Source of the DNA: Microbacterium sp. SORGH_AS_0888
GTDB taxonomy: Bacteria > Actinomycetota > Actinomycetes > Actinomycetales > Microbacteriaceae
DNA: 64,000 bases
NCBI RefSeq assembly: GCF_030818905.1
Contig: NZ_JAUTAZ010000001.1
Location: forward strand, 124,001-188,000
Direction: 5' to 3'
The notes under the pieces were generated by a model. It saw only the letters and a list, made by a program, of their open reading frames with translations. It was not told the origin of the DNA and did not search any database. A program made the position numbers and the translations under genes. This document shows, one piece after another, positions 34,984-38,265 of this stretch. How positions within the stretch are numbered: the first letter of the stretch is position 1; each line of letters starts with the position of its first letter.

Positions 34984-35024
34984 CCCGCGGCGGTCTGACC
35001 CCGCGGCGCTCAGACCGCCGCGGG
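34984..35024. terminator. Bidirectional hairpin between rseP and the anthranilate synthase gene
   Basis: A perfect 15-bp inverted repeat, CCCGCGGCGGTCTGA at 34984-34998 and its complement at 35010-35024, with an 11-nt loop, lies 3 nt after the rseP stop. The right arm contains the stop codon and last four codons of the convergent minus-strand gene, so one structure serves both ends. Confidence 0.8.
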
Positions 35025-36914
35025 CGTCAGCGCGTGGGCCACGAGGCGCTCGAGGGTCGCCATCCCGTCGCGGGAGAGGATCGACTCGAGGTGGCCCTGC
35101 ACGGAGGCGAACCCGACCCCGCGCAGCGCGTAGACATCGCCCGTGACCGGGTCGGCCGAGACCTCGGCCGGTCCGACACGCGTCGTCCCTGCCGGAACCC
35201 GTGCCGTGAAGGTGTTGTAGAAGCCGATGGAGGCCGGCTCACCGAACACGTCCACCGTCTTCTGGAGCCCCTGGTGCGGTCGATCGAGCGGCACGAGCGC
35301 GATCCCCAGCCGATCGCTGAGGATCTGGTGGCTCAGGCACACGGCCAGGATCGGGCGTCCGGTGGACATCCGATCGTCGACGACGGCGCGCATCCGCTGC
35401 ATGCGCGCCGACCCGGGGTCTCGCGGATCGCCGGGGCCGGGCCCGGACACCACCAGGTCGGCTGCGGCGAGCGCCTCCGCCGTGGCATCGGCCCACGGCA
35501 CGACGGCCACCTCGAGCCCGAGGTGACGCAGTTGGTGCGCCAGCATCGTCGTGAAGCGGTCCTCGGCATCGACCACCACGGCCGTGCGGCCCGCGAACGG
35601 CCCCTCCCGGTGCGCGTCCTGCGGCGTGAGCCAGAACGCGGCGAGCCGGTCGTTGCGGGATGCGAGGAGGGCCGCGACGCCGGGATCCTCGGCCAGCGGC
35701 CGCGGCGTCGGGGCCGGCTCGTCCGGGTCGTCCTCGCGCACCGGGGCCTCGTCGCGGGGCACCGCCCCGATCGCGCCGAGGACGCCGGCGGCCTTGCCGT
35801 GGGTCTCGCTCACCTCGCCCATCGGGTCGGAGTGGCGCACGAGCGTCGCGCCCACCGGCACCCGCAGCCGACCCTCCACGAGGTAGGCGGTGCGGATGAG
35901 GATGGGGGCGTCGAGGTCGTGGCCGCCCCCCTCGTTCGGAGTGAACAGCGCCGCGACGCCGGAGTAGTAGCCGCGGGGGGTGCGTTCGTGCCGAGCGATG
36001 ACGGTGCACGCGTTCTGCATGGGGGAGCCGGTCACCGTCGGGGCGAACATCGTCTCGCGGAGGATGTCGCGCGGGTCCATCGCGGAATGCCCCTCGAGCT
36101 CGTACTCGGTGTGGGTGAGCCGCGACATCTCCTTGAGGTGCGGGCCCGTGATGCGCCCGCCGTCGCTGCAGACGGCGCTCATCATCTTGAGCTCCTCGTC
36201 GACGACCATGAACAGCTCCTCCGTCTCCTTCGTGGAGGAGAGGAACTCGGACAGCGTCTCGACCGTGGCCCCGCCGGTGGGATGACGGAAGGTGCCGGAG
36301 ATCGGGTTCATGGACACGATCCCGCCGGTGGCGCCCACGTGCGCCTCGGGGCTCGCACCGACCGCGACGTGCCCGTCGGTGACGACGACGAAGGTCCAGT
36401 ACGCGCCCTTCTCATGCTCGAGGAGCGCACGGAACCAGGTGAGCGCAGCGGTGCGGGCGGGCGCGTCGACGGTCGCCGTGAAGTCGCGGCGGATGACGAA
36501 GTTCGCGCCCTCGCCTCGACCGATCTCGTCCGCGATGACGGTGCGCACGATGTCGGCGTAGGCGTCGTCGCTCACGTCGAACCCGGCGTCGCGGAGGGGG
36601 ATCTGCATGCCGGGGAGCGCGCCGATCACCTCGGCGCGCGGCAGCCGTCGGTGCTCGGTCACGACCAGGCAGCGCAGCGGCGCGTCGTCGTCGTGGCAGA
36701 CGAAGCCGCGCTCGCGCACCTGGCGGAACGGCACGAGGGCGAGCACCTCGCGAGCCGAGCCGGCCGCATCCGTGAGCGGGATGTCGGCCAGCAGCTCGAC
36801 GTCGACCACGTCACCCGTGAGCACCTCGACCCAGCCGGTCTCACGGGCGATGAGCGCGAAGGGCTCATCGCCGAGCTCGAGGGCGGTCAACAGGGCGGAG
36901 GCGGTGCCGGTCAT
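35010..36914 (-). CDS. Fused anthranilate synthase (TrpE-TrpG type)
   Basis: A 634-residue fusion that makes anthranilate from chorismate and glutamine. The N-terminal two-thirds is the chorismate-binding (TrpE-like) domain, with [27 protein letters not shown] and [11 protein letters not shown]. After a linker (residues ~425-445) a class I glutamine amidotransferase follows: [12 protein letters not shown], the nucleophile Cys in [11 protein letters not shown], and the [16 protein letters not shown] region. Family name by type is uncertain: the layout also resembles PhzE of phenazine pathways, but the tryptophan attenuator just upstream shows that the product serves tryptophan synthesis. ATG 36914; no trpBA genes are nearby. 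Confidence 0.92.
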
Positions 36915-36953
36915 GATCGGTCTTTCGTCGAGGAGCGGCCGCCGCAACGCAGA

Positions 36954-37015
36954 AGACCGCCCATTCGGAGGGAGAGGGCGGTCTGTGTCGCACACACACC
37001 GCCTCAGGCGGTGTG
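36954..37015 (-). promoter_or_regulatory. Tryptophan attenuator: pause, antiterminator and terminator hairpins
   Basis: Three mutually exclusive RNA hairpins precede the anthranilate synthase gene. Hairpin 1:2 pairs 36995-37003 with 37007-37015 (9 bp, loop TCA) and includes the end of the leader peptide. Hairpin 3:4, the terminator, pairs 36954-36962 with 36976-36984 (9 bp, loop 13 nt). Segment 2 can instead pair with segment 3: GGCGGTGTGTG against CACAGACCGCC matches at 10 of 11 positions, the antiterminator. When Trp-tRNA is scarce the ribosome should stall on the two Trp codons and favour 2:3. Confidence 0.88.
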
Positions 37016-37039
37016 CCACCAGGAGCGGTTCGCGAGCAT
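37004..37039 (-). CDS. trpL: Tryptophan leader peptide, [11 protein letters not shown]
   Basis: An 11-codon open frame, ATG at 37039 to TGA at 37004-37006, encodes [11 protein letters not shown] with two adjacent TGG codons. It is too short for ordinary gene finders. It overlaps hairpin 1:2 of the attenuator and its start is 6 nt after a TAATTT box, so the mRNA is probably leaderless. The ribosome reading this peptide senses charged tRNA-Trp. The peptide itself need not have a function. Confidence 0.88.
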
Positions 37040-37045
37040 GCGCCG

Positions 37046-37051
37046 AAATTA
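37046..37051 (-). promoter_or_regulatory. Putative -10 box (TAATTT) for the tryptophan leader
   Basis: On the minus strand TAATTT is followed by 6 nt and the leader peptide ATG at 37039. It is divergent from the ispG box 51 bp away. Confidence 0.65.
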
Positions 37052-37101
37052 CCACATGCGCGCGGGCTCGGCCTCGCAGCGCCCACCCGGCCGCGGACGC
37101 G

Positions 37102-37107
37102 TACGCT
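37102..37107 (+). promoter_or_regulatory. Putative -10 box (TACGCT) for ispG, leaderless
   Basis: TACGCT is followed by 6 nt and the GTG at 37114. Confidence 0.6.
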
Positions 37108-37113
37108 GGTGGC

Positions 37114-38265
37114 GTGCCAGCAGTGAACCTCGGGATGCCCGCCGTCCCTCACACCCTCGCTCCGCGACGCAAGAGCCGGCAGATCCGGGTCGGGAAGGTC
37201 CTGGTGGGCGGTGACGCCCCCATCAGCGTGCAGTCGATGGCCACCACCAAGACCACCGATATCAACGCGACCCTCCAGCAGATCGCCGAGCTCACCGCAT
37301 CCGGATGCGAGATCGTGCGTGTCGCGGTGCCGAGCCAGGACGACGCGGACGTGCTGCACATCATCGCGAAGAAGAGCCAGATCCCGGTCATCGCCGACAT
37401 CCACTTCCAGCCGAAGTACGTCTTCCAGGCGATCGACGCGGGGTGTGCGGCCGTGCGCGTGAACCCGGGGAACATCCGTCAGTTCGATGACAAGGTCGGC
37501 GAGATCGCGAAGGCCGCCAAGGACGCGGGCGTCTCGCTCCGCATCGGCGTCAACGCCGGCTCGCTGGACAAGCGGCTGCTGCAGAAGTACGGCAAGGCGA
37601 CGCCGGAGGCGCTCGCCGAGAGCGCCCGATGGGAGGCGTCGCTGTTTGAGGAGCACGACTTCCACGACTTCAAGATCTCGGTCAAGCACAACGACCCGGT
37701 GATCATGGTGCAGGCGTACCGGCTGCTGGCCGCGATGGGCGACTGGCCGCTGCATCTGGGCGTGACCGAGGCGGGCCCCGCGTTCCAGGGCACGATCAAG
37801 TCGGCGACGGCGTTCGGCATCCTGCTCGGCGAGGGGATCGGCGACACGATCCGCGTCTCGCTCTCCGCGCCGCCGGCCGAGGAGGTCAAGGTCGGGCATC
37901 AGATCCTCCAGTCCCTCAACCTGCGCGAGCGCAAGCTGGAGATCGTGTCCTGTCCCTCGTGCGGCCGCGCGCAGGTCGACGTGTACTCGCTGGCCGACAG
38001 CGTCACCGAGGGACTCAAGGACATGACAGTGCCGCTGCGCGTCGCCGTCATGGGCTGTGTCGTGAACGGTCCCGGTGAGGCGCGCGAGGCCGACCTCGGC
38101 GTTGCGAGCGGCAACGGCAAGGGCCAGATCTTCGTGAAGGGGGAGGTCGTCAAGACCGTCCCCGAGGCGGAGATCGTGCAGACGCTCATCGAGGAGGCCA
38201 ACCGCATCGCCGCCGAGATGGGCCCCGATGCGCCGCTGGGCACCGCGCAGGTCGTCACCGCCTGA
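37114..38265 (+). CDS. ispG: 4-hydroxy-3-methylbut-2-en-1-yl diphosphate synthase
   Basis: IspG reduces MEcPP to HMBPP, the penultimate step of the MEP pathway, with a [4Fe-4S] cluster. The 383-residue protein has a TIM-barrel domain ([29 protein letters not shown]) and a C-terminal cluster domain whose ligands are Cys280 and Cys283 (SCPSCGR), Cys315 (GCVVNGPGE) and Glu322. The start is GTG 37114, set by the TACGCT box. It follows rseP in the conserved order although the fused anthranilate synthase has been placed between on the opposite strand. Confidence 0.96.

Follow-up and report, generated by a model that had tools for sequence, protein, structure and literature searches.

The DNA analyzed here, a stretch of 64 kb to which we refer as the window, carries on its minus strand trpEG (35010–36914), a gene assigned by domain matches to a fused anthranilate synthase of 634 aa. 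Upstream of the gene the minus strand reads TGTGG-TAATTT-CGGCGC-ATG, that is an extended -10 promoter element, TGG-TAATTT (37046–37054, with the box at 37051–37046), a gap of 6 nt (CGGCGC) and an ATG at 37039. This ATG opens a leader peptide ORF of 11 aa (37004–37039) that ends on TGA, would lie at the very 5′ end of the mRNA and starts 125 nt upstream of the trpEG start at 36914. Codons 7 and 8 of the leader are the tandem, presumably regulatory Trp codons TGG TGG (37021–37016), and no other ORF on either strand of the window combines such a WW leader with a box. The attenuator promoter is arranged head to head with ispG, whose start is located at 37114 or 37135 (region 37039–37135), so that both promoters have about 75–96 bp in common.

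The transcript downstream of the Trp codons can be divided into four segments. Segment 1 starts with the final G of the second Trp codon and segment 2 lies directly 3′ of the stop codon, and both pair in a 1:2 hairpin (36994–37016, arms 37016–37007 and 37003–36994) that encloses the leader stop codon. The 2:3 antiterminator (36977–37003) pairs 37003–36992 with 36988–36977 through 6 and 5 bp around one mismatch, and the 3:4 terminator hairpin (36954–36984) pairs 36984–36976 with 36962–36954. The terminator is followed on its 3′ side by the short and weak T-rich tract TCTGCGTT (36946–36953, 4 T of 8) and by a possible but uncertain fifth segment, GGCCGCTC (36933–36940), with the potential to pair with the 3′ arm of the terminator. 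The box, the start codon, the leader with its tandem Trp codons and the three hairpins had all been proposed in an original prediction made from the DNA alone, and each was found in the sequence, and for the hairpins also upon folding, where it had been placed.

Folding of the alternate structures, a check suggested together with that prediction, yielded −18.3 kcal/mol for the 1:2 hairpin (10 bp including one G-U), −19.0 kcal/mol for the 2:3 antiterminator and −19.3 kcal/mol for the 3:4 terminator with its main stem of 9 bp. The 161-nt region as a whole folds better than 195 of 200 dinucleotide shuffles (z-score −2.24), which is a weak test when taken alone. We then represented ribosome footprints by assumed masks of 28–31 nt, a length of our own choice. 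With nt 4–31 or 7–34 masked, corresponding to a stall at Trp7 or Trp8, RNA extending to nt 66 forms 2:3, and 3:4 forms with the assumed mask at the stop codon. Once segment 4 is present, the 3:4 terminator is the favoured fold even under the stalled-ribosome mask, and in RNA to nt 66 without any ribosome the favoured fold contains 2:3 and not 1:2. Hence, the switch must be kinetic and dependent on timing. Ribosome-free RNA to nt 92 places segment 2 in a longer 5′ hairpin and has 3:4 formed. The 1:2, 2:3 and 3:4 pairings are mutually exclusive, and a stalled or a finished ribosome selects among them under these assumed masks, with the order of folding being required.

Read together, these features very probably constitute a ribosome-mediated Trp transcription attenuator that acts on a leaderless mRNA upstream of the apparently sole anthranilate synthase gene. 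RNA polymerase would initiate on the A of the leader ATG or on a neighbouring base, as judged from the -10 box, and a 70S ribosome would engage the 5′-terminal AUG without a Shine-Dalgarno sequence, a known mode of initiation. In the presence of charged tRNA-Trp the ribosome would reach the stop codon and cover segment 2, 3:4 would form and transcription would end. When charged tRNA-Trp is absent, the ribosome would stall on codons 7–8 with its front edge just before segment 2, leaving 2:3 to form and trpEG to be transcribed, and the output of trpEG would in this manner respond to Trp. Without a ribosome, segment 2 might be held by the 5′ part of the transcript, either in 1:2 or in the longer hairpin with nt 11–16, and 3:4 would again result, depending on the order of folding.

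As the original prediction had further suggested, we compared the upstream regions of orthologous genes. The set comprised 129 fused trpEG loci (30, 19 and 80 named ones), and since the named loci are the best 80 of at least 572 confirmed relatives, close relatives dominate the counts. A locus was scored positive if a WW-containing ORF of 6–30 codons was found with TAnnnT 5–9 nt before its start. This was the case for 124 of the 129 loci, compared to only 2 of 4121 overlapping 480-nt stretches taken from both strands of the 80 named loci. Hence, the attenuator is not a product of chance, and the proposed four-segment Trp attenuator with exclusive folds is borne out, the folds under the assumed masks and the leader with its box across loci. 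The sets overlap to some extent (G020:C3 and L073 have the same leader), and 120 loci are left after removal of exact duplicates. Ten weaker loci of 30–40% identity (L057–L066) were excluded from the 129 as not being fused relatives, and none of the ten carries a WW leader. Three of the five fused loci scored negative end with their contig (L026, L085 and L113), and two truly do not have a leader (L055 and L143). L055 (G084:C15) stems from a 1.4 Mb genome of another genus, in which the fused gene lies beside an ispG-like gene and the attenuator is absent; here the structural gene itself appears to be directly leaderless, since TAGCAT is found 7 nt before its own ATG.

The geometry of the leader varies little. 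Among the 85 loci of the genus Microbacterium and close MAGs, duplicates kept, the leader has 11 aa in 79, 10 aa in 3 and 12 aa in 3, and WW begins at codon 7 in 80. Exactly three codons separate the last Trp from the stop in 111 of 123 loci, the stop codon being TAG in 102 of 123, and of the 120 distinct loci 108 start the leader with ATG and 12 with GTG. In 108 of 124 loci the segment-2 core GRCGG begins 1–3 bases downstream of the first stop-codon base, and the stop codon therefore mostly abuts or overlaps the switch. With this spacing, segment 2 should be covered by a ribosome that has arrived at the stop and just left free by one stalled at Trp. A homologous terminator core could be located by pattern in 114 of 124 loci, and together with the segment-2 core in 101 of 124. 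At least 4 T of 8 follow the automatically chosen hairpin in 95 of 123 loci, and 2:3 pairing is better than in shuffled sequence (p ≤ 0.05) in 71 of 123; the automatic choice took other stems in, for example, L041, L044, L048, L049, L067, L068, L111, L117, L118, L122 and L144, and the energies and p-values of individual loci thus do not all refer to the homologous terminator. In L039 and L040 (genomes G108 and G177) the leader MFAIRFWWPAF is kept and the best downstream hairpin is a different one, of the GAGACGG/CCGTCTC type and followed by 2 T of 8; both genomes also possess a full-length canonical TrpE match.

Covariation was analyzed in an alignment of 57 sequences, consisting of the window and 56 of the 73 listed references, the remaining 17 being close to others, divergent or equipped with long leaders. 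The terminator covaries: 97.2% of its cells are paired and 27 cells show a double change, values each reached by none of 500 shuffles, and all slid controls score lower. The double changes fall on 3 pairs (matched by 113 of 500 shuffles), and 11 further pair types occur (39 of 500). For the 6-bp core of the antiterminator, 95.0% of cells are paired and 5 show a double change (0 of 500 shuffles). The covariation of 2:3 is nevertheless modest, because its further pair types lie below the shuffled mean and are reached by 495 of 500 shuffles, and controls slid by +1, +2 and +3 equal or exceed the real covariation score.

The position of the promoter box bears on the 5′ end of the message. Across the 120 distinct loci the gap between the box and the start codon measures 6 nt in 66, 7 nt in 53 and 8 nt in 1, and a single further TAnnnT, at 12 nt, occurs in the 40 nt upstream. 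The loci had been preselected for a box at 5–9 nt, yet only 2 of 126 with full upstream sequence were without one. A TGN triplet 5′ of the box, as in an extended -10 element, is present in 86 of 120 loci (47 TGG, 27 TGA and 12 TGC), and no match to a Shine-Dalgarno sequence longer than 4 nt was found upstream of the leader among the 120 loci. The leader ORF is thus probably leaderless, as originally proposed, with its 5′ end deduced from the -10 box. The best surviving alternative is that the attenuator is real but its message starts further upstream, the leader being read by 70S scanning or another form of Shine-Dalgarno-independent initiation. The 75–96 nt before the divergent ispG have room for other promoters and the leaderless 5′ end is, within the genus, deduced, but a TAnnnT that in 119 of 120 distinct loci ends 6–7 nt from the start codon, with only two other positions in the 40 nt upstream over all of these loci, speaks against such a start, and so does the S. 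lividans trpL1 transcript, which is reported as leaderless by RNA-seq (PMC8079986). We consider this alternative improbable. It had also been argued that leaderless translation, leaving the ribosome no Shine-Dalgarno sequence to bind, would make attenuation unusual. This view is not supported: leaderless initiation proceeds by 70S binding at a 5′-terminal AUG and does not need a Shine-Dalgarno sequence (PMC9031893), and leaderless attenuators have been reported from Actinobacteria, trpL1 upstream of S. lividans trpE among them (PMC8079986). The leaderless aspect is neither a paradox nor new.

A further possibility is that the hairpins act mainly on translation of trpEG, with segment 4 or the T-tract hiding the ribosome site, and not on termination. 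In the window GGTCTT on the 3′ side of the terminator could indeed pair with AAGACC at the trpEG ribosome site. Pairing of this kind was rejected as an element of the switch: it is no stronger than with swapped partners, which performed equally or better in 200 of 200 swaps for 75 genus loci and in 151 of 200 for 109 loci, and a mainly translational action appears even less probable than an upstream start. That GC-rich inverted repeats met a short ORF by chance, to which the commonness of hairpins at high GC and the z-score of only −2.24 could be taken to point, is already refuted by the conservation of leader and attenuator against the control stretches, next to a terminator covariation score seen in 0 of 500 shuffles, and has a negligible probability. 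The fifth segment has a narrower distribution: of 66 genus loci tested, 24 have a motif of the GACCGCC/GGCCGCT type and 12 show pairing with the terminator 3′ arm that exceeds shuffles (p ≤ 0.05), and of 34 other loci one has the motif and one such pairing. The window has p = 0.115.

Searches for related elements gave the following picture. Rfam (release 15) returned no match in the window at the gathering cut-off and no Trp leader, and at permissive thresholds it gave three weak hits, all of them to unrelated families and far under the respective cut-offs. A covariance model applied to the window genome produced one strong match, the trpEG attenuator itself at 91.4 bits, whereas the next match (23 bits, E = 3.5e-4) is partial and falls on a plain terminator hairpin that resembles it in sequence and immediately follows a 3′ end judged by eye to be tRNA-like. 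The search scored 150 of 5487 first-look candidates, so that weaker copies of the attenuator could be missed. The terminator hairpin 3′ of the tRNA-like end (L152, 1498–1530; G000:C1 near 410300) likewise has the GACCGCCC/GGGCGGTC core, which is possibly a stem that terminators of this genome commonly use. The 14 kb around trpC-trpB-trpA and the 6.5-kb trpD-family region of the window genome contained no WW leader with a box.

We turned to the enzyme and its place in tryptophan synthesis. The TrpEG protein unites Chorismate_bind and GATase domains in one chain, and none of the 25 listed of 40 NCBIfam models reaches its cut-off for it. The closest solved relative is the PhzE-type structure PDB 3r74 (residues 19–629, E = 1.4e-160). 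Three Chorismate_bind genes are found in the window genome, among which trpEG is the only candidate anthranilate synthase found; one of the others, beside leuS, we take from neighbours and sequence to be PabB-like, and the third, beside a menD-like gene, is on the same grounds presumably MenF-like. A gene for trpA and a trpD-family protein, the family of which also includes other enzymes, are present. The his-trp operon of the window genome presumably reads hisF-hisI-(Trp-operon membrane-protein-like gene)-trpC-trpB-trpA, with gene names assumed from sequence, and trpE is absent after hisI (L149, 7100–8200), where the membrane-protein-like gene follows directly; the family members L147 and L148 have trpE at this place.

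A full-length canonical TrpE (NF010086) was found in none of 35 genus genomes including the window genome, three of these being only 77–86% complete, and the best score was 268.6 bits against a cut-off of 693. The whole search set of 80 genomes consisted of these 35, of 18 other family genomes with the fused gene and of 27 of the 130 family genomes without it. Fused enzyme only was found in 41, both enzymes in 12, canonical TrpE only in 26 and neither in 1, where six full-length matches of 617–666 bits were counted as canonical TrpE despite lying under the cut-off. The genome with neither, G077 of the same family, possibly belongs to a Trp auxotroph or represents a further replacement. The genus genomes are most simply read as having lost TrpE, with the fused, attenuator-bearing gene taking its place, and the cell seems to have no anthranilate synthase gene besides trpEG. 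The genomic context supports a tryptophan role for this PhzE-like fused enzyme, with anthranilate rather than ADIC as its predicted product. The attenuator had been taken as showing this role. The role is supported, since canonical TrpE is missing and three multi-copy genomes have one attenuator-bearing copy each, but the attenuator as sole proof does not: the missing TrpE is the stronger evidence, and an attenuator alone is no proof of chemistry.

The distribution of attenuators among additional fused copies points in the same direction. A phylum-wide search (E ≤ 1e-80) yielded 14 further fused loci, 10 of which have a Trp leader and box. In three genomes of 7–8 Mb with more than one listed fused copy, probably Streptomyces (G309, G373 and G395), exactly one copy each bears the attenuator, and the four extra copies (L157, L166, L167 and L168) have no Trp leader. 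Three of these four sit near phenazine/ADIC-type or NRPS genes: L157 adjoins an isochorismatase gene with DAHP synthase and EPSP synthase genes nearby, and L167 and L168 share one region, at a distance of about 15 kb from each other, in which NRPS and PhzF-like genes also occur. For L166, whose start codon is uncertain, no clear cluster is apparent. As a simple sequence mark, the attenuator may hence separate tryptophan-serving fused enzymes from phenazine/ADIC-type copies. Divergent ispG adjoins trpEG in 54 of the 80 named loci (the best 80 of at least 572 relatives), all from the genus and close MAGs. The other 26 comprise three genus loci on short contigs (L071, L085 and L113) and 23 from other genera, among them Plantibacter, Agromyces, Jiangella and Kutzneria. 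Of the latter 22 carry the leader in the absence of divergent ispG, and gene and attenuator thus appear to move together.

One may extend these observations to a more ambitious reading, in which leaderlessness is a selected working part of the attenuator and not a side effect, each transcript makes a single-shot decision, the cassette with a sensor of its own took the place of the his-trp operon TrpE in Microbacterium, and the fifth segment adds a second competition in some members. With the start codon at nt 1 and the first Trp codon at positions 6–11 (mostly 7 in the genus), a stalled ribosome would fill almost the whole stretch between the 5′ end and the border of segment 2, and since the 5′ region is then occupied, one ribosome per nascent transcript would decide once. 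We hold this reading, taken as a whole, unlikely. For the attenuator itself, what is new here is its breadth, its fixed geometry and the genus-wide stand-in for TrpE. Trp attenuation on probably leaderless messages, previously a matter of a few model Actinobacteria, is extended to most of the fused trpEG loci compared (124 of 129, and 10 of 14 more), the genus is documented with a regulated fused gene standing in for TrpE in every genome searched (35 of 35), and the tight geometry offers a testbed for how a ribosome loading at nucleotide 1 keeps pace with RNA polymerase.

Comparable sensors are known from related bacteria. Lin, Paradkar and Vining reportedly described in 1998 a trp attenuator of the S. 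venezuelae anthranilate synthase gene, and the S. venezuelae TrpEG is said to be an anthranilate synthase (Ashenafi 2008). Like the window, S. venezuelae thus combines a trp attenuator with a fused TrpEG target, the latter as far as the title of the work tells. The genomes of 7–8 Mb that are probably Streptomyces differ in having leaders of mostly 18 aa that end in WWWTA.PAA(H/R), whereas the window leader has 11 aa with WW at codons 7–8 and a stop that touches segment 2. Attenuators of Corynebacterium, where trpE is not fused, precede the trp operon, and that of the window precedes fused trpEG. Leaderless polycysteine attenuators of mycobacteria were reportedly described by Canestrari in 2020; they share with the window a leaderless short ORF with repeated codons that sense one amino acid, but they sense cysteine and are described as translational, while the window attenuator would sense Trp and is proposed to be transcriptional. 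PMC13236596 and PMC9031893 cite these polycysteine attenuators, the latter with an action on translation of the downstream genes.

According to PMC1262725, classical trp attenuators are predicted for both Corynebacterium and Streptomyces, with experimental work done on the C. glutamicum and S. venezuelae examples. The Corynebacterium systems share with the window a tandem UGG leader and complementary triples common to antiterminator and terminator (PMC1262725 and PMC4046766), and PMC4046766, which reports a trp leader, also cites work that by its title describes attenuation at ilvBNC of C. glutamicum in the absence of a ribosome binding site. PMC4833913 cites the 1998 study as well as a paper from 2015 that deals with Trp attenuators of Actinobacteria. 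A literature search in which subscription papers lay mostly out of scope found no paper on trp leader-peptide attenuation in Microbacterium, which the 2015 paper may already include. PhzE stops at ADIC (PMC5958127), and this sets the 3r74 enzyme apart from its relative trpEG, which stands in for TrpE. In S. lividans TK24 trpL1 (MFAHSTRNWWWTAHPAAH), reported as leaderless, precedes trpE (PMC8079986) and resembles the window in its leaderless Trp leader and hairpins, with a single trpE gene downstream; trpL1-like leaders precede the fused gene in 7 loci of the phylum-wide set. Its relative S. coelicolor has several trpE genes (PMC5036795), whereas no canonical TrpE was found in the genus Microbacterium. 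The window attenuator is hence a well-supported new example and not a new kind, as such sensors are known in related bacteria.
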